Shown: in pieces, positions 2,571 through 15,275 of the stretch
Numbering within the stretch: the stretch's first letter is position 1
Layout of the letters: the number at the start of each line of letters is the position of its first letter
Source of the DNA: Rubrobacter calidifluminis
GTDB taxonomy: Bacteria; Actinomycetota; Rubrobacteria; Rubrobacterales; Rubrobacteraceae
Length of the DNA stretch: 64,000 nucleotides
Direction: 5' to 3'
Assembly (NCBI RefSeq): GCF_028617075.1
Contig: NZ_JAQKGV010000004.1
Span: 124,001 to 188,000 of the forward strand
The notes under the pieces: model-generated
The model's input: the letters and a program-made list of their open reading frames with translations, nothing else
Database searches by the model: none
Told to the model about the DNA's origin: nothing
Made by a program: the position numbers and the translations under genes

Positions 2571-3425
2571 TTGAGCTTTGTCTCCCGTTCGCTGAGGAGC
2601 AGGGCGGCGTTCTTGGCCGTCCTGCTCCTCTTCATGATCTTCGCTCTCGCTTCATGCGATAGCACACCCGTTGCCACGAAGGCTCCCGGTGCGGGCGGGG
2701 ATGCCTCGCACCACGCGGCGGGAGGGGGCCGGGGAGACTCGGGTAGCGTTCGGGGGGGCGACAAAGAGGCGCGGACGGGGGACGCCTTGAAGGCCTCCCC
2801 CGGGAGCGTGACCGTGAAGGCAGCCGATCCCAGCAGGGTGCTCTCCAGGAAGAAGCTTCCGGATGGCTTGCCCTCCTACAGGGGCTGGAATGAGAAGGGC
2901 TCTGGAGGCTCTTCGCGTAAGATGATCTCGGTCGGGACATCCGCGGGTGCCATACCGGCGGTCAGGCCTTTCAATTTCGGCCGTGATCCCGGCGGCCCCA
3001 AGGACAAGAAGCTCTACCTCTCCATCCCCAAGATAGGGCTGCAGGACGTGCCGGTCTACAACTCGGTCGACTCGGCGAAGCTCGACGAGGGGGCGGTGCA
3101 TGTGCCGGCGACGGGTTTTCCCTGGCAGAAGGGTGCAAACGTCTACATAGCAGGTCACCGCCTCGGCTACCCTAACACGGGTTCGCTCTACCTCTTCTAC
3201 CACCTTCCCGAGCTTACGGAGGGTGACGAGGTCATCCTGAAGGACTCCGCCGGCCAGGAATATACCTACCGGGTGATAAATAAAGAGACCGTAGGCCCGG
3301 AAAACGTGCAGGTGATGAACCCGGTACCCGGGAAATCACTCGTGACCCTGCAGACCTGCACCCTCCCACACTATACAAAGCGGATCATTGTGCAGGCCGA
3401 ACTGGTCGGCCGGTCCCGGGAGTAG
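2571..3425 (+). CDS. Class E-like sortase with a lipobox
   Basis: About 284 residues from a TTG at 2571, chosen because GGAGAGAGG lies just before it and the in-frame ATG at 2514 lies inside the previous gene. Near the N-terminus a hydrophobic stretch ends LASC, a good lipobox. A 100-residue Gly/Lys/Ser-rich linker follows, then the sortase barrel from about residue 145 (LYLSIPKIGLQDVPVY). Catalytic His (YIAGHRLG), Cys (TLQTCTL) and Arg (YTKRIIVQ) are all present. Sortases cut an LPxTG-like signal and attach proteins to peptidoglycan or to each other. No substrate gene is seen beside it. Class E is inferred from the actinobacterial setting and motif spacing. Confidence 0.85.
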   Translation: MSFVSRSLRSRAAFLAVLLLFMIFALASCDSTPVATKAPGAGGDASHHAAGGGRGDSGSVRGGDKEARTGDALKASPGSVTVKAADPSRVLSRKKLPDGLPSYRGWNEKGSGGSSRKMISVGTSAGAIPAVRPFNFGRDPGGPKDKKLYLSIPKIGLQDVPVYNSVDSAKLDEGAVHVPATGFPWQKGANVYIAGHRLGYPNTGSLYLFYHLPELTEGDEVILKDSAGQEYTYRVINKETVGPENVQVMNPVPGKSLVTLQTCTLPHYTKRIIVQAELVGRSRE

Positions 3426-3440
3426 GGCTGCCTACCGAAA

Positions 3441-3449
3441 TGGTATATT
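3441..3449 (+). promoter_or_regulatory. Extended -10 promoter of tatA-like gene
   Basis: TGGTATATT is an extended -10 element. The ATG at 3456 begins six bases after the hexamer, so the message is probably leaderless; there is no ribosome site in front of the ATG. Confidence 0.6.
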
Positions 3450-3455
3450 GACTCC

Positions 3456-3659
3456 ATGGTAACCGACCTCTTACAACCACTGCATCTTCTGATCCTCTTC
3501 GCCATCATCCTCACCGCCGTGGGACCCCGGCGCTCGATGCGTCTGGCCCGGGAGGTGGGGGATGGTCTCGGGAGGTTGAACGGCTACCGCCGGGAGCTCA
3601 GGGAGGGCTTTGCCTCCGCGCTCGCCGACAGGGGGGAGACCCGAAAGAAGGAGCGTTGA
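3456..3659 (+). CDS. tatA: TatA/E-like twin-arginine translocase subunit
   Basis: 67 residues. One N-terminal membrane helix (LLQPLHLLILFAIILTAVGP) runs into an amphipathic helix (MRLAREVGDGLGRL) and a charged tail, the layout of TatA. The xxPxHLLILxxIxLxxxGPxxxxxL pattern matches the TatA/E group, although the usual Phe-Gly before the Pro reads Val-Gly. TatA oligomerises to form the passage for folded proteins that carry twin-arginine signals. At least one Tat substrate is encoded 2 kb upstream. No tatC lies in this window. The stop overlaps the next TTG start by four bases. Confidence 0.75.
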   Translation: MVTDLLQPLHLLILFAIILTAVGPRRSMRLAREVGDGLGRLNGYRRELREGFASALADRGETRKKER

Positions 3660-4525
3660 GGCGGGAACCGGTCTTCCACGGTGTGTGTGCTCCGAGTCTG
3701 CGCCTGAGCGTCCTCTCGAGCGGGAGCTCTGGGAACGCCACCTACGTCGAGGCCGGAGGACGCGGATTTCTGGTCGATGCCGGGCTATCTGCTCGCGGCC
3801 TGCGGCGTCTGCTCGCCCGCGTCGGGCGTGACCTGGAGAGCGTCGAAGCGGTCCTCGTCACTCACGGGCACTCGGACCACACCTCCGGCATCCGCTCGCT
3901 GGTGCGTGAGCGCGGGGTGGAGGTCTACGCCGCGCGGGGGGTGTGGGACGCGCCGGGGACCGTTGCCGTGGAGGTCGCGGAGTCCTTCGAGGTGTGCGGG
4001 GTACGGGCCGCCTTCTTCGAGGTACCTCACGACGCCCCGACCTGTGGTCTCAGGATCTCCGGTGGAGACGGGGTCACAGCCGCTTTCGCCACCGACCTCG
4101 GGGAGGTGACGCCGCAGGTCCTCGGCTGGATGCGTGGTGCGCGGGCTCTCGTCCTGGAGGCCAACCACGATCCCGAATGGTTGCGCAGGGGGCCGTACCC
4201 CATGGATCTCAAGCGCAGGATTCTCTCCAGCCGGGGGCACCTCTCCAACCTGCAGAGCGCCGAAGCCGCGCTCGCCCTGGCTCCGTACGGGCTCTCGGAG
4301 ATAGTCCTTGCGCACCTCTCCGAGACCAACAATACGCCGGTGAGGGCCTGCGGAACCGTCGCGCTCGCGCTGCGTAGAGCAGGTTACGGCGGAGTACGGG
4401 TCCGGGCCGCGATGCGTCGCCATCCTACACCCTGGATCTCGGTGGGGGCACTGGCGGATGACGACGGGGAGTGTGTCTACCGCCGCGCGGAAGAGTCGGG
4501 GCGTCTGTTCGATCTGGGGAGGTGA
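3656..4525 (+). CDS. WalJ/YycJ-type MBL-fold metallo-hydrolase
   Basis: 289 residues from a TTG that overlaps the tatA-like stop. The core begins LSVLSSGSSGNATYVE, typical of the WalJ (YycJ) family, and has the metal motif THGHSDH at about residues 70-76, a later His (VPHDAPTCG) and Asp (FATDLGEV). These bind two metal ions for hydrolysis, probably of nucleic acid or a phosphodiester. In Firmicutes the gene sits with walRK and links cell division to DNA repair. Here it is coupled to rlmH downstream, as also seen next to yycJ in other Gram-positives. Exact substrate is unknown. Confidence 0.85.
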   Translation: MRREPVFHGVCAPSLRLSVLSSGSSGNATYVEAGGRGFLVDAGLSARGLRRLLARVGRDLESVEAVLVTHGHSDHTSGIRSLVRERGVEVYAARGVWDAPGTVAVEVAESFEVCGVRAAFFEVPHDAPTCGLRISGGDGVTAAFATDLGEVTPQVLGWMRGARALVLEANHDPEWLRRGPYPMDLKRRILSSRGHLSNLQSAEAALALAPYGLSEIVLAHLSETNNTPVRACGTVALALRRAGYGGVRVRAAMRRHPTPWISVGALADDDGECVYRRAEESGRLFDLGR

Positions 4526-10428: not shown

Positions 10429-11238
10429 ATGAGCGCGAGCAAGCGGCTGGTCATCTGTCAGGTGAGCGACATTCACTGCGGTAGCCCGCATTTTATTCCC
10501 GATCTTCTGGAGCGCACGATCCTGGAGGTCAACGAGATGGACCCTACGGCGGTGGTGGTCTCCGGAGACCTCACCGACGCCGGCTACCGGCAGGAGTTCG
10601 AGACTGCCGCCGACTACGTGCGCCGCTTCCGCTGCGAGCGGGTGATGGTCATCCCGGGCAACCACGACTCACGCAACGTGGGATATATACACTTCGAGCG
10701 TCTCTTCGGGGAGCGGTATTCGGTCCTGGATTTCGACGAGGCGGTGATGGTCGGGGTGGACTCCTCGGAGCCGGACCTGAACGACGGCCGGGTGGGGCGC
10801 GAGCACTACGAGTTCATCCGCGAATCCTTCGCCGGGGCTGGCGACAGGTTGAAGATCTTCGTGATCCACCACCATCTCGTGCCCATCCCCGGCACCGGAC
10901 GGGAACGCAACATCATCTTCGACGCGGGTGACATCCTGGAGCTCCTGGTGGAGGTGGGCGTGGACCTCGTGCTCTCCGGACACAAGCACGTGCCCTATTC
11001 CTGGAAGCTCGAGGACATGTTCATCGTCAACGCTGGGACCGCGTCGACCACCCGGCTGCGGGGGAACACCCGTCCCTGCTACAACGTGGTCGAGATAGAG
11101 GACCGCCGGGTGCGGGTCTTCCGGAAGTATCCGTTCAAGGAACGCGAACTCGCGGTGGACTTCAACCCCAGGACGCACGCCTACTATCGCCGGGAGGAGA
11201 AGATAGATTCGGAGGTTGTGCTGCCGGGCGAGCGGTAG
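10429..11238 (+). CDS. Calcineurin-type metallophosphoesterase (CpdA/Icc-like)
   Basis: 269 residues. All five phosphoesterase motifs are seen in order: QVSDIHCG (DxH), VVSGDLTD (GD), IPGNHDS (GNHD), VIHHHLVP (H) and LSGHKHVP (GHxH). These bind a two-metal centre that hydrolyses phosphodiesters. The family includes cyclic-nucleotide phosphodiesterases, but the substrate cannot be told from sequence. Its stop lies 13 bases before the cDPG synthetase homologue, so they form one operon. Confidence 0.9.
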   Translation: MSASKRLVICQVSDIHCGSPHFIPDLLERTILEVNEMDPTAVVVSGDLTDAGYRQEFETAADYVRRFRCERVMVIPGNHDSRNVGYIHFERLFGERYSVLDFDEAVMVGVDSSEPDLNDGRVGREHYEFIRESFAGAGDRLKIFVIHHHLVPIPGTGRERNIIFDAGDILELLVEVGVDLVLSGHKHVPYSWKLEDMFIVNAGTASTTRLRGNTRPCYNVVEIEDRRVRVFRKYPFKERELAVDFNPRTHAYYRREEKIDSEVVLPGER

Positions 11239-11251
11239 GGGCCTGGAAAAG

Positions 11252-12580
11252 ATGCGCGCACTTTTCCTGATAGACGGAGAGCACTATCCTCCGGTCGTGA
11301 TCGAGGCGATAGAGGAGTTGCGCGCTTCCCTCGGCGTGGAACCGGTCGCGGCGGCTTTGCTCGGGGGGACGGAGAAGATCGGGGAGGGAGCCGACTACGG
11401 GCTGCCGCTCGTCTTCGGGGAGGACCCGGAAGACGCCGTCAGGGAGGCGATCGTACGTTACGAAGTGGACGTCGTCGTCGATCTCTCCGATGAGCCGGTG
11501 GTCGGTTACAGGGAGCGGATGAGGATAGCCTCGAGGGTACTCGCCGCGGGCGCGCGCTACGTGGGCAGCGACTTCGAGCTTCGTCCGCCGGAGTTTCATC
11601 CCGTCTTTGGGAAGCCTTCGCTGGCGGTCATCGGCACCGGGAAAAGGATCGGGAAGACCGCGGTGACTGGGTATCTCGCCCGGCTTCTGGCCCGGGAGGG
11701 GTTCGATCCGATCGTCGTCTCCATGGGGCGCGGGGGTCCCCCGCGCCCGGAGGTGATAGATGGGAAGAGGATGGAGATCGGCAGCGACTATCTTCTCGAG
11801 GCGCTGCGGCGCGGGGCGCATGCGGCGAGCGATTGCTACGAGACCGCCGCGCTCAGCCGGGTGACGACTGTGGGGTGCCGGCGCTGCGGCGGCGGGCTCG
11901 CCGGGGCACCTTTCGTCTCCAACGTGATCGAGGGGGCGAGGGTAGCCGCCGGGCTCGAGGGGGGCCTCATCCTCTTCGATGGCTCGGGGGCCGCTTTGCC
12001 GCCCGTGGAGGCGGGGGCGCGGGTGCTCGTCGCCGGAGCGAACCAGGACCCCGAATACGTGACCGGGTTCCTCGGCGCCTACCGGCTGCTCGTCTCCGAC
12101 GTGCTGCTGATCACGATGGCCGAGGAGCCGCTGGCCTCACCCGAGAGGGTGCAGCGGCTCAGGCAGGAGGTTCGGAGGGTGAAGCCGGAGATCGAGGTCG
12201 TCCCCGTGGTCTTCCGCCCGCGGCCCGTCGATGACGTGCGCGGGGTACGGCTGGTGTACGTCTCCACCGCGCCACGGCAGATGCTCGGCAGGTTGAGCGG
12301 GTATCTCGAGGAGGAATACGGCTGCAGGGTGGTGGCGGCCTCGGGGAACCTCTCGGACCGGCGGGCCCTCGAATATGACCTCGAAGCGGCGGGGGACGCG
12401 GAGGCCTATCTCACCGAGATCAAGGCTGCCGCGGTCGACGTGGTGGCACGGCGGGGGCGGGAGGAGGGGATACCTGTCTTCTACTGTGACAACGAACCCG
12501 TGGCGGAGGGGCTCGAGTCTCTGCTGATCGATCTGGCCCGGCGTGCGGCGGAGGGGTTTGCGGGAATGGACTGTGGTTGA
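11252..12580 (+). CDS. cpgS: Cyclic 2,3-diphosphoglycerate synthetase homologue
   Basis: 442 residues from ATG 11252; an earlier in-frame GTG at 11216 overlaps the previous gene. The opening MRALFLIDGEHYPPVVIEAI and LLGGTEKIG match archaeal cDPG synthetase as I recall it. A nucleotide-binding loop (VIGTGKRIGKTAVTG) lies near residue 130, and a CRRC pair near residue 210 (VGCRRCGGG) may bind metal. The archaeal enzyme closes 2,3-diphosphoglycerate into its cyclic anhydride, a thermoprotectant and phosphate store in methanogens. The substrate here is inferred. A GlpX-like gene follows. Confidence 0.75.
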   Translation: MRALFLIDGEHYPPVVIEAIEELRASLGVEPVAAALLGGTEKIGEGADYGLPLVFGEDPEDAVREAIVRYEVDVVVDLSDEPVVGYRERMRIASRVLAAGARYVGSDFELRPPEFHPVFGKPSLAVIGTGKRIGKTAVTGYLARLLAREGFDPIVVSMGRGGPPRPEVIDGKRMEIGSDYLLEALRRGAHAASDCYETAALSRVTTVGCRRCGGGLAGAPFVSNVIEGARVAAGLEGGLILFDGSGAALPPVEAGARVLVAGANQDPEYVTGFLGAYRLLVSDVLLITMAEEPLASPERVQRLRQEVRRVKPEIEVVPVVFRPRPVDDVRGVRLVYVSTAPRQMLGRLSGYLEEEYGCRVVAASGNLSDRRALEYDLEAAGDAEAYLTEIKAAAVDVVARRGREEGIPVFYCDNEPVAEGLESLLIDLARRAAEGFAGMDCG

Positions 12581-12766: not shown

Positions 12767-13747
12767 ATGATGAGGGCTATTGAGCTTGCAACCGTGACCG
12801 AGCAGGTCGCGTTGCGGGTGGCCCGTCTGGAAGGTTCAGGTTCTCCGGAGGAGGCCTATACCCTGGCCAGCAAGACTTTCCGGGAAGAGATGGACAAGGT
12901 CCACGTCTCAGCGGAGGTGGTCGTCTTCCGGGAGGAGAGACCGGGGAGGGGGAGGCTGGTGCATTCCGAGGTGCTCTCGGTGGGTGACGTGCTCGGGTCC
13001 GGTGGGGTCGAGGTGGACATCGCTGTCGAGCCCGTCGAGGGGCTCTCGCTCCTGACCAAGGGGCTGGCGGGTTCGGTGACCGCGGTGGCCGCCTCGCCGA
13101 GGGGCACGATGCTGCGGACGCCGGACATGTACATGAGCAAGCTCATCGTCGGTCCCCAGGCCAGGGGGAAGATAGACATAGACGCCCCCGTGGCTCAAAA
13201 CATTCGAGCCATCGCGGAGGCGATGGGGCGTGAGACTTCTGAGATAACGGTCGCCGTACTGGACCGGGAGAGGCACGAGGGACTCATCGAGGAGATCAGA
13301 CGCAGCGGGGCCAGGATACAGATCCGTCCCGAGGGGGATCTCGCCCCGGCCATCGCCGTCGGGTTGCGGGGGGCCGATCTCGACGCGGTCATCGGGATCG
13401 GGGGAGCGCTGGAGGGTATCCTCGCCGCTGCGGCCATAAAGTGCCTCGGTGGTGAGATGCAGGCGCGGATGTGGCCGACGCAGCGATCTCAGGTCGAGAA
13501 GCTCAGGGAGTGTGGGCTCGACGACCCCGAGCAAAAGCTTACGTTGGGAGATCTCATTCGGGGTGATGAGGTGGTGTTCGCTGCCACCGGCATCACGCCC
13601 GGGGAGACCCTCGAAGGCGTGAAGTACTTTAGAGGAGGAGCGAGAACGCAGACGGTTGTGATGTCCACCAACCCGCGTATGGTAAGATTTATCGACACCA
13701 TCCATGTTCTGGGACCAGATGTCCGGCTGCAGGGCTTTCGACGTTGA
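12767..13747 (+). CDS. GlpX-family (class II FBPase) paralogue lacking key metal ligands
   Basis: 326 residues, aligning over its full length with class II fructose-1,6-bisphosphatase (MRAIELATVTEQVAL, TPDMYMSKLIVGP, VLDRERHEGLIEEIR, IGGALEGILAAAAIKCLGG, ATGITPGETLEGV). Measured against E. coli GlpX, Asp33 is Tyr, the EGEIDEAP motif reads REERPGRG (Glu57 to Arg, Asp61 to Pro) and Asp85 is Glu; Glu88 and Glu213 remain. A normal two-metal FBPase site cannot form, so it is probably inactive or has new chemistry. The fold call is firm. It sits between cpgS and rho behind a structured leader. Confidence 0.85.
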   Translation: MMRAIELATVTEQVALRVARLEGSGSPEEAYTLASKTFREEMDKVHVSAEVVVFREERPGRGRLVHSEVLSVGDVLGSGGVEVDIAVEPVEGLSLLTKGLAGSVTAVAASPRGTMLRTPDMYMSKLIVGPQARGKIDIDAPVAQNIRAIAEAMGRETSEITVAVLDRERHEGLIEEIRRSGARIQIRPEGDLAPAIAVGLRGADLDAVIGIGGALEGILAAAAIKCLGGEMQARMWPTQRSQVEKLRECGLDDPEQKLTLGDLIRGDEVVFAATGITPGETLEGVKYFRGGARTQTVVMSTNPRMVRFIDTIHVLGPDVRLQGFRR

Positions 13748-13799: not shown

Positions 13800-15275
13800 A
13801 TGGCCGACATATCCACCCTTGAACGCAAGAAGCTGAGCGATCTGCACCAGATAGCATCCCAGCTTGGCATCGAGAAGTACCGCAAGTACCGCAAATCCGA
13901 GCTCGCCGCCCTGATTTACAAGGTGGCTACAGAGCAGGCCGGCAACGGCGGCGGGCAGGCCCAGGCGAAACCGCCCGAGGAGGCTCAGGTCGCGGTGCGT
14001 CCCGAGGCGAACGGCTCCGCCGTGAAAGAGGCGGCTCCGGAAGCCGCCGCTGGGTCTGCCGGTGGGACGGAGACCGCGGTCGTGGAGAGGCCTAGAGAAG
14101 AGAGGCCGAAGAAGGAGGCCGAGCAACGGCAGCCGCGGTCGGAACAGCGTCCTCCCGAGGATGAGAAACTCAGGCAGAGCGGTGTCCTTGACATCCTGCC
14201 CGACGGATTCGGGTTCCTGCGCACCAGGGGCTACATCCAGAGCAAGGGGGACATCTACGTCTCCACCTCGCAGATAAAGCGCTTCAATCTCAGGCGCGGG
14301 GATTACATAGTCGGGCAGATCCGGCCCGCCCGCGAGGGCGAGAAGTACCCGGCGCTGGTGCGCATCGAGAAGATAAACGACCGCGAACCGCAGAAGGGGC
14401 GTCAGCGGCCGAACTTCGACGACCTGACGCCGCTCTACCCCATGGAACGGCTGCGCCTGGAGTGGAAGCCCAACGACATCGCCCCGCGGGTGATAGACCT
14501 GGTTGCCCCGATCGGCAAGGGGCAGCGCGGGCTCATCGTCTCCCCTCCGAAGGCGGGCAAGACCACGATTCTGAAGCAGATCGCGCAGTCCATAATCGCC
14601 AACTACCCGGACGTGAAGGTGCTGGTTCTTCTCGCCGACGAGCGCCCGGAGGAGGCGACGGACTGGCGGCGCAGCGTGCCCGAGGCGGAGGTCGTGGCCT
14701 CGACCTTCGACCAGCCGCCGGAGAACCATATCGCCGTGGCAGAGCTCGTCCTCGAGCGCGTCAAGCGGCTCGTGGAGGAAGGCGACGACGTGGTGGTGCT
14801 GCTCGACTCGCTCACCCGCCTCGCGCGCGCCTACAACCTGGCCGCCCCCGCGAGTGGGCGTATCCTTTCCGGGGGTGTGGATTCGGCCGCGCTCTACCCG
14901 CCGAAGAAGTTCTTCGGCGCGGCGCGCAACATCGAGAACGGCGGCTCGCTCACGATCCTGGCCAGTGCCCTCGTGGAGACCGGCAGCCGCATGGAGGAAG
15001 TTATCTACGAGGAGTTCAAGGGCACCGGCAACATGGAGCTCCACCTGGAGCGCAAGCTGGCGAACAAGAGGATCTACCCGGCCATCAACATCGAGGATTC
15101 CGGAACCCGCAAGGAGGAGCTCCTGATGGAGCCCGCCGAGGCGCAGAGGGTCTGGCAGGTCAGGAACATCCTCAACGCGCTGGACACCAGCCAGAAGATA
15201 GAGCTCCTCATCCAGAAGCTCAAGGAGACCCGTACCAACGCCGAGTTCCTGCGCGAGCTGCAGCGGGTGCGGTAG
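13800..15275 (+). CDS. rho: Transcription termination factor Rho
   Basis: 491 residues. An N-terminal Rho_N helix bundle ([22 protein letters not shown]) is followed by an Ala/Glu/Arg-rich, probably disordered insert (about residues 45-120), as in other high-GC actinobacteria. The RNA-binding cold-shock domain comes next ([14 protein letters not shown]), then the hexameric ATPase with Walker A ([15 protein letters not shown]), Walker B ([16 protein letters not shown]) and the Q/R-loop region ([20 protein letters not shown]). Rho unwinds RNA from polymerase at rut sites. GAGAGGTAAGAG precedes the ATG, and a hairpin follows the stop. Confidence 0.97.

Follow-up and report, generated by a model that had tools for sequence, protein, structure and literature searches.

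The gene at 12767-13747 (+ strand) of the window (the whole 64,000-nucleotide stretch of DNA that was analyzed, from a Rubrobacteraceae genome) encodes a full-length homolog of class II FBPase (GlpX) whose residues strongly support a loss of the canonical FBPase mechanism. The protein very probably has no canonical FBPase activity and is probably a noncatalytic protein that binds a ligand. On balance, we favor the interpretation that it is a pseudoenzyme with the GlpX fold that binds a sugar phosphate and has a regulatory role, probably coupled to the synthesis of 2,3-DPG and cyclic-DPG (cDPG); the coupling to cDPG metabolism, judged by itself, is plausible at somewhat less than an even chance. 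The fold itself is known and is seen here in a new form; neither gene decay nor an alignment artifact accounts for the observation.

Sequence family and predicted fold

The open reading frame is intact, starts with ATG, and specifies 326 residues, in agreement with an earlier sequence-only reading of this DNA that had described the product as a GlpX homolog. The Pfam model FBPase_glpX (PF03320) matched the whole length with 351.8 bits (E = 3.3e-105; cut-off of 27), and the NCBIfam glpX equivalog TIGR00330 matched with 269 bits, barely over its cut-off of 259.3. Because this equivalog scores the protein as an FBPase, the gene is likely misannotated. An AlphaFold2 model of the protein, for which the input was an alignment with 23 relatives, had a pLDDT of 90 and a pTM of 0.90. 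When this model was compared to the PDB by using Foldseek, the best 24 matches were all class II FBPases/GlpX (E down to 1.4e-38), with query-length normalized TM-scores of 0.80-0.90 over these 24; the values were 0.86-0.90 for FBPase II from E. coli (3d1r/3big), M. tuberculosis (6ayy), and F. tularensis (7js3/7txg) and 0.80 for the older structure 1ni9. The best PDB match by both sequence and fold was the cyanobacterial dual FBPase/SBPase (3roj, 5a5l), which belongs to the same family and from which the window protein differs by the same catalytic losses that distinguish it from other class II enzymes. The product thus has the GlpX fold as modeled, and the earlier proposal that the fold is retained was borne out.

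Active-site residues

Residues were mapped in a MAFFT alignment of more than 100 homologs and are numbered here according to E. coli GlpX, which corresponds to PDB 1ni9 end to end with no mismatch in the printed alignment. In F. tularensis FBPase II, the M1 metal site is formed by E57 and the DP(I/L)(D/E)GT motif, the Thr of this motif is the proposed nucleophile, phosphate-6 is held by R-x-R, and the furanose hydroxyls are held by DGD (PMC10289334). In the window protein, the metal ligand D33 is replaced by Y31 (codon at 12857..12859), and E57 (the M1 apical ligand; PMC10289334) and G58 are replaced by R55 and E56 (12929..12934). The sequence EPVEGL (13028..13045) occupies the place of the catalytic DP(I/L)(D/E)GT; D85 has become E88, the nucleophile T90 has become L93, and E88 is retained as E91. 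The Thr nucleophile of the characterized enzymes (T90 in E. coli, T84 in M. tuberculosis, and T89 in F. tularensis; PMC10289334, PMC5892879) is accordingly Leu in this protein. The catalytic Asp61 loop, GEGExDEAP, is absent; the window protein has REER followed by an insertion, and an enlarged loop (58-70) encoded at 12938..12970 and with about 10-14 additional residues stands in place of the E. coli IDEAP segment. This rebuilt loop has no Asp counterpart of D61 (the position is V65 or a gap) and is of low confidence in the model (residues 58-67, pLDDT <50). Finally, D186 has become E189, so that the furanose motif IxDGD (E. coli DGD 186-188) reads EGD (13331..13339), a change that may alter the ligand.

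Other residues of the site are shared with class II GlpX proteins. The retained features are E88 (E91); D117, Y119, and K122 within DMYMSK (13124..13141), corresponding to the YM..K motif; R164, R166, and H167 within R-E-R-H (13265..13276; E. coli 164-167), which provides the (R/K)-x-R of the 6-phosphate pocket (PMC10289334) and the R-x-R-H of the class; G187-D188; and the glycine loop with G209-G210 and E213 (E216) within GGALE (13400..13414), corresponding to GGAxE. The M2 ligands D117 and E213 are therefore both present. Evaluated solely as class II metal ligands, positions 33, 57, and 85 are Tyr, Arg, and Glu, and E88 and E213 are in place.

The sequence-only reading had listed four substitutions, at Asp33, Glu57, Asp61, and Asp85, and the alignment did not restore any of these ligands. 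The changes to Tyr, Arg, and Glu at 33, 57, and 85 were recovered as described; the loss of Asp61 was also recovered, and its assignment as Pro was not, with Pro lying within the alignment uncertainty. The retention of Glu88, Glu213, DMYM, and GGALEG was likewise found. That reading underestimated the extent of the damage since it missed T90L, which is the strongest loss, along with D186E and the loop insertion. An alignment artifact was ruled out by the agreement of three alignments and of the family-wide columns.

Single substitutions at these positions are sufficient to abolish catalysis in characterized enzymes: the M. tuberculosis T84A and F. tularensis T89A variants have no activity and the E. 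coli D61A variant has essentially none (PMC10289334, PMC5892879). The T84A protein was crystallized with F6P (PMC5892879), and the E. coli D61A protein crystallized with FBP is structure 3d1r, in whose chain we confirmed Ala at position 61; binding thus survives such losses. With the metal-holding residues and Thr nucleophile replaced, the metal-closing loop rebuilt, and the 6-phosphate/sugar pocket kept, hydrolysis of FBP by the class II mechanism would no longer be possible, and F6P, FBP, or a similar sugar phosphate would presumably still be bound.

Conservation and selection in the Rubrobacteraceae

We compared 32 distinct Rubrobacteraceae sequences with 98 intact GlpX sequences. Position 33 is Tyr in 30 and Phe in 2 of the Rubrobacteraceae proteins and Asp in 98 of 98 intact GlpX; position 57 is Arg (31/32) or Lys (1/32), position 85 is Glu (31/32), and position 90 is Leu (31/32) or Met (1/32). 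R164, R166, H167, D117, and E213 are each found in 32 of 32, and position 186 is Glu in 32 of 32. The altered residues are therefore near-fixed in relatives. Among 39 positions that are near-invariant in the intact proteins, 12 are altered in the Rubrobacteraceae, all at E. coli residues 33-100, and none of the 13 positions beyond residue 100 is altered (Fisher p = 0.003). A loss pattern confined in this way is not chance, and it upholds the earlier claim of selective loss with full-length conservation.

Near-fixed substitutions, the invariant M2 ligands, the uniform replacement of DGD by EGD, and the adjoining cDPG genes are all features that would fit an enzyme with a new reaction, such as the hydrolysis of 2,3-DPG, cDPG, or another phosphorylated solute by a phosphatase or phosphodiesterase with a rebuilt metal site (E85, E88, E213, and D117) and a different nucleophile. 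Because these four residues could still hold metal in the Rubrobacteraceae, a changed activity is possible. We consider such an enzyme unlikely, however, as no acid/base or nucleophile is conspicuous at the 1-phosphate end, where T90 is replaced by Leu, Arg, Ala, or Pro across the wider clade, and the sister families described below, with freely variable catalytic positions and E213 often replaced by Gln, do not suggest a single shared new site.

The ratio dN/dS was 0.05-0.13 between close Rubrobacteraceae pairs, which is indicative of strong purifying selection on the gene. A pseudogene was ruled out by these values together with the intact reading frames. A related possibility is that the gene is vestigial, the last glpX copy, useless and slowly decaying, whose persistence in the region of the rho operon is accidental. 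Clean losses of the gene in four genomes (G010, G036, G030, and G005) and the variability of catalytic residues across the clade would fit this explanation. It is nevertheless improbable given the low dN/dS, the invariance of the pocket while catalytic sites change, the conserved new Cys motif gained by the sister families, and the state of the gene in 33 of 39 Rubrobacteraceae genomes, where it is full length with no stops (in one, G007, it is split across contig ends). As judged from these comparisons, the catalytic half of the site is shown to have been lost selectively and lineage-wide and the ligand half to have been retained under apparent selection.

Related proteins in two other families

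Two further Actinomycetota families, f27 and f43, encode a GlpX-like protein after cpgS (the cDPG synthetase homolog) and 2-phosphoglycerate kinase (2PGK), and the cpgS-2PGK-glpX linkage is found in nearly all of their loci (e.g., L175, L181, L228). The gene is followed by rho in the f27 loci; in the f43 loci, for which the flanks were short, no rho was seen. These proteins are also broken, by different residues than those of the Rubrobacteraceae. In the 32 sequences compared, D33 survives in 7, E57 in 5, T90 in 4, and D61 in none, whereas D85 survives in 28 and E213 is Gln in 17. Y119, R164, R166, H167, D186, G187, G209, and G210 are invariant, so the loss of D61 and the preservation of the pocket are shared with the window protein, and the families differ from it in their other catalytic substitutions, in mostly keeping DGD (D186 in 32/32), in their Cys motifs, and in the adjacent 2PGK. 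As far as the literature was searched, these GlpX-like proteins of cDPG clusters are undescribed.

A tree of 70 rows groups the Rubrobacteraceae proteins with those of f27 and f43 in a single clade (support of 98/95, recovered in 99% of bootstrap trees), the sister of which is an intact GlpX from family f14. Confounding of the tree by the trait itself was rejected, since the clade persists (SH-aLRT of 94) when E. coli columns 29-95 are omitted. The minimum numbers of changes on the tree were 6 for D33, 4 each for E57 and D85, 3 for T90, and 2 for D61, compared with 0 for Y119, R166, and G187. Catalytic residues have thus been lost repeatedly and independently within the clade. Two members (L228 and L229) lack only D61 among the key residues, suggesting that D61 was lost first. 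A clade of pseudoenzymes with repeated, differently resolved catalytic losses around an unchanged pocket would constitute a clean natural experiment in the conversion of an enzyme to a sensor.

The f27 and f43 proteins have acquired two Cys motifs, C-x-C near the N terminus and C-x-x-C near the C terminus (with His in place of the latter's second Cys in two proteins), that are absent from the Rubrobacteraceae and from the intact GlpX compared. In L175 (4709-5737), L181 (about 3220-4185), and L228-L257 these Cys residues may form a four-cysteine metal or redox site. Separately, an Acidobacteriota GlpX located outside any cDPG cluster (L057, 5974-6957) has Gln for D61 and Ile for D85, keeps D33, E57, and T90, and still scores above the FBPase equivalog cut-off.

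FBPases in Rubrobacteraceae genomes

The product of 12767-13747 is the sole PF03320 protein in its genome, which is 96% complete; a second, intact glpX was sought there with the PF03320 profile and was not found. The single-contig relatives G014 and G015 likewise carry only the broken copy. Across the family, 34 of 39 genomes have a PF03320 match, and the one intact GlpX among the 39 genomes (L002 in G005) is of a different branch. In that genome the broken gene is gone from the locus and the intact one lies elsewhere, possibly by horizontal transfer. The term paralog, used in the sequence-only reading, consequently applies only in a deep sense, as in f43, where intact and broken forms occur together; within the window genome there is no second GlpX, and the gene lies in the same glpX-rho-prfA-prmC position as in Bacillaceae.

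These genomes also yielded no class I FBPase (19 Rubrobacteraceae sampled), no class V FBPase (all 39), and no class III FBPase above the cut-off (all 39). Such an absence, the single PF03320 copy, and the listing of FBPase and gluconeogenesis as present in the R. radiotolerans genome paper (PMC6741124) would be explained if the window protein were the working FBPase of the organism, using an unusual mechanism. We regard this as very unlikely. The protein retains none of D33, E57, D61, and the Thr nucleophile, when any one of the single mutations noted above already abolishes activity, and three genomes (G010, G036, and G030) lack the gene. Substitutes are available in principle: the window genome has two PF00459 (IMPase) proteins, one with an intact DPLDGT motif, and this family could be an alternative FBPase source; an unrelated phosphatase, M. 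tuberculosis GPM2, is also able to act as an FBPase (PMC4535450). The need for gluconeogenesis is itself uncertain; a search for PEPCK of the GTP type found none, and PEPCK was set aside as evidence for the pathway. If the window protein is indeed dead, the Rubrobacteraceae would have either an FBPase yet to be recognized or none, and their metabolic models would have to be revised.

GlpX assembles as a homotetramer (PMC5892879), which allows an inactive subunit to take on a regulatory function, and most f43 genomes sampled also hold an intact GlpX. The protein might then be a structural or interaction partner with no need of a ligand, either as a scaffold or within a hetero-oligomer formed with another enzyme, for example an IMPase-like one. 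A pure scaffold does not need unchanged R164, R166, H167, Y119, and G187, however, and f27 and the Rubrobacteraceae (except G005) have no intact GlpX with which to partner; we thus give this explanation a low probability, about that of a vestigial gene.

Gene neighborhood and proposed role

The gene lies between cpgS (11216..12580, + strand) and rho (13800..15275, + strand), as the sequence-only reading had placed it. No Pfam or NCBIfam model matched the cpgS product, which is a clear homolog of the cDPG synthetase of M. fervidus (PDB 8ork/8oru, E = 1e-123). The order phosphoesterase-cpgS-glpX-rho-DUF1385-prfA-prmC-sua5 holds in every locus whose contig extends far enough, and cpgS adjoins the glpX-like gene in all informative loci; with f27 and f43 included, the broken gene is physically linked to cDPG genes across three families. 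In four Rubrobacteraceae (G010, G036, G030, and G005) the gene is missing from this place and rho comes directly after cpgS.

cDPG has been described from methanogens only (PMC10690619). cpgS was found in 37 of 39 Rubrobacteraceae (the other two genomes are incomplete) and in 198 of 396 Actinomycetota genomes sampled, often beside 2PGK, and a bacterial cDPG pathway is predicted on this basis. The conserved linkage to the cDPG synthetase and 2PGK also points to such a pathway for this unusual stress metabolite. The counterpart of the methanogen 2PGK is not adjacent in the Rubrobacteraceae, but 36 of 39 genomes encode it at another location, which makes the pathway complete on paper, with cDPG itself a predicted product in these bacteria. 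Co-occurrence with cpgS by itself was rejected as functional evidence, being weak when cpgS is present in half of the phylum sample.

We propose that binding of a sugar phosphate by the GlpX-like pseudoenzyme is used as an allosteric signal, probably by a GlpX-like tetramer, and that the most likely target would be the neighboring cDPG/2,3-DPG enzymes, such that cDPG synthesis would track glycolytic/gluconeogenic flux. A keyword search of two cDPG synthetase papers showed no GlpX-like role, and no GlpX pseudoenzyme was found in a literature search that covered few subscription journals. Two observations weaken the proposal. The Bacillaceae loci have an intact glpX-rho-prfA-prmC, so the window locus looks like the ancestral glpX-rho position, and with cpgS common in the phylum the closeness to cDPG genes may reflect shared ancestry and not function. 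In addition, G010, G036, and G030 keep cpgS and 2PGK with no glpX-like gene, indicating that cDPG synthesis does not need it. A broader version, in which the whole dead clade consists of sugar-phosphate sensors regulating a so far unrecognized Actinomycetota cDPG pathway, with catalysis lost lineage by lineage around the same pocket and one branch having gained a site of four cysteines that may serve metal binding or redox chemistry, is conceivable and rather doubtful.

Two other features of these loci were observed. A calcineurin-like phosphoesterase gene (10429..11238, + strand; PF00149, 67.6 bits) is conserved directly upstream of cpgS across families and is a candidate cDPG or 2,3-DPG hydrolase. 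In other Actinomycetota, a 2PGK homolog and transaldolase occupy the slot between cpgS and rho (L135, L137-L142); a transaldolase gene is also upstream of glpX-rho in the Bacillaceae loci, suggesting an ancient tal-glpX-rho neighborhood.
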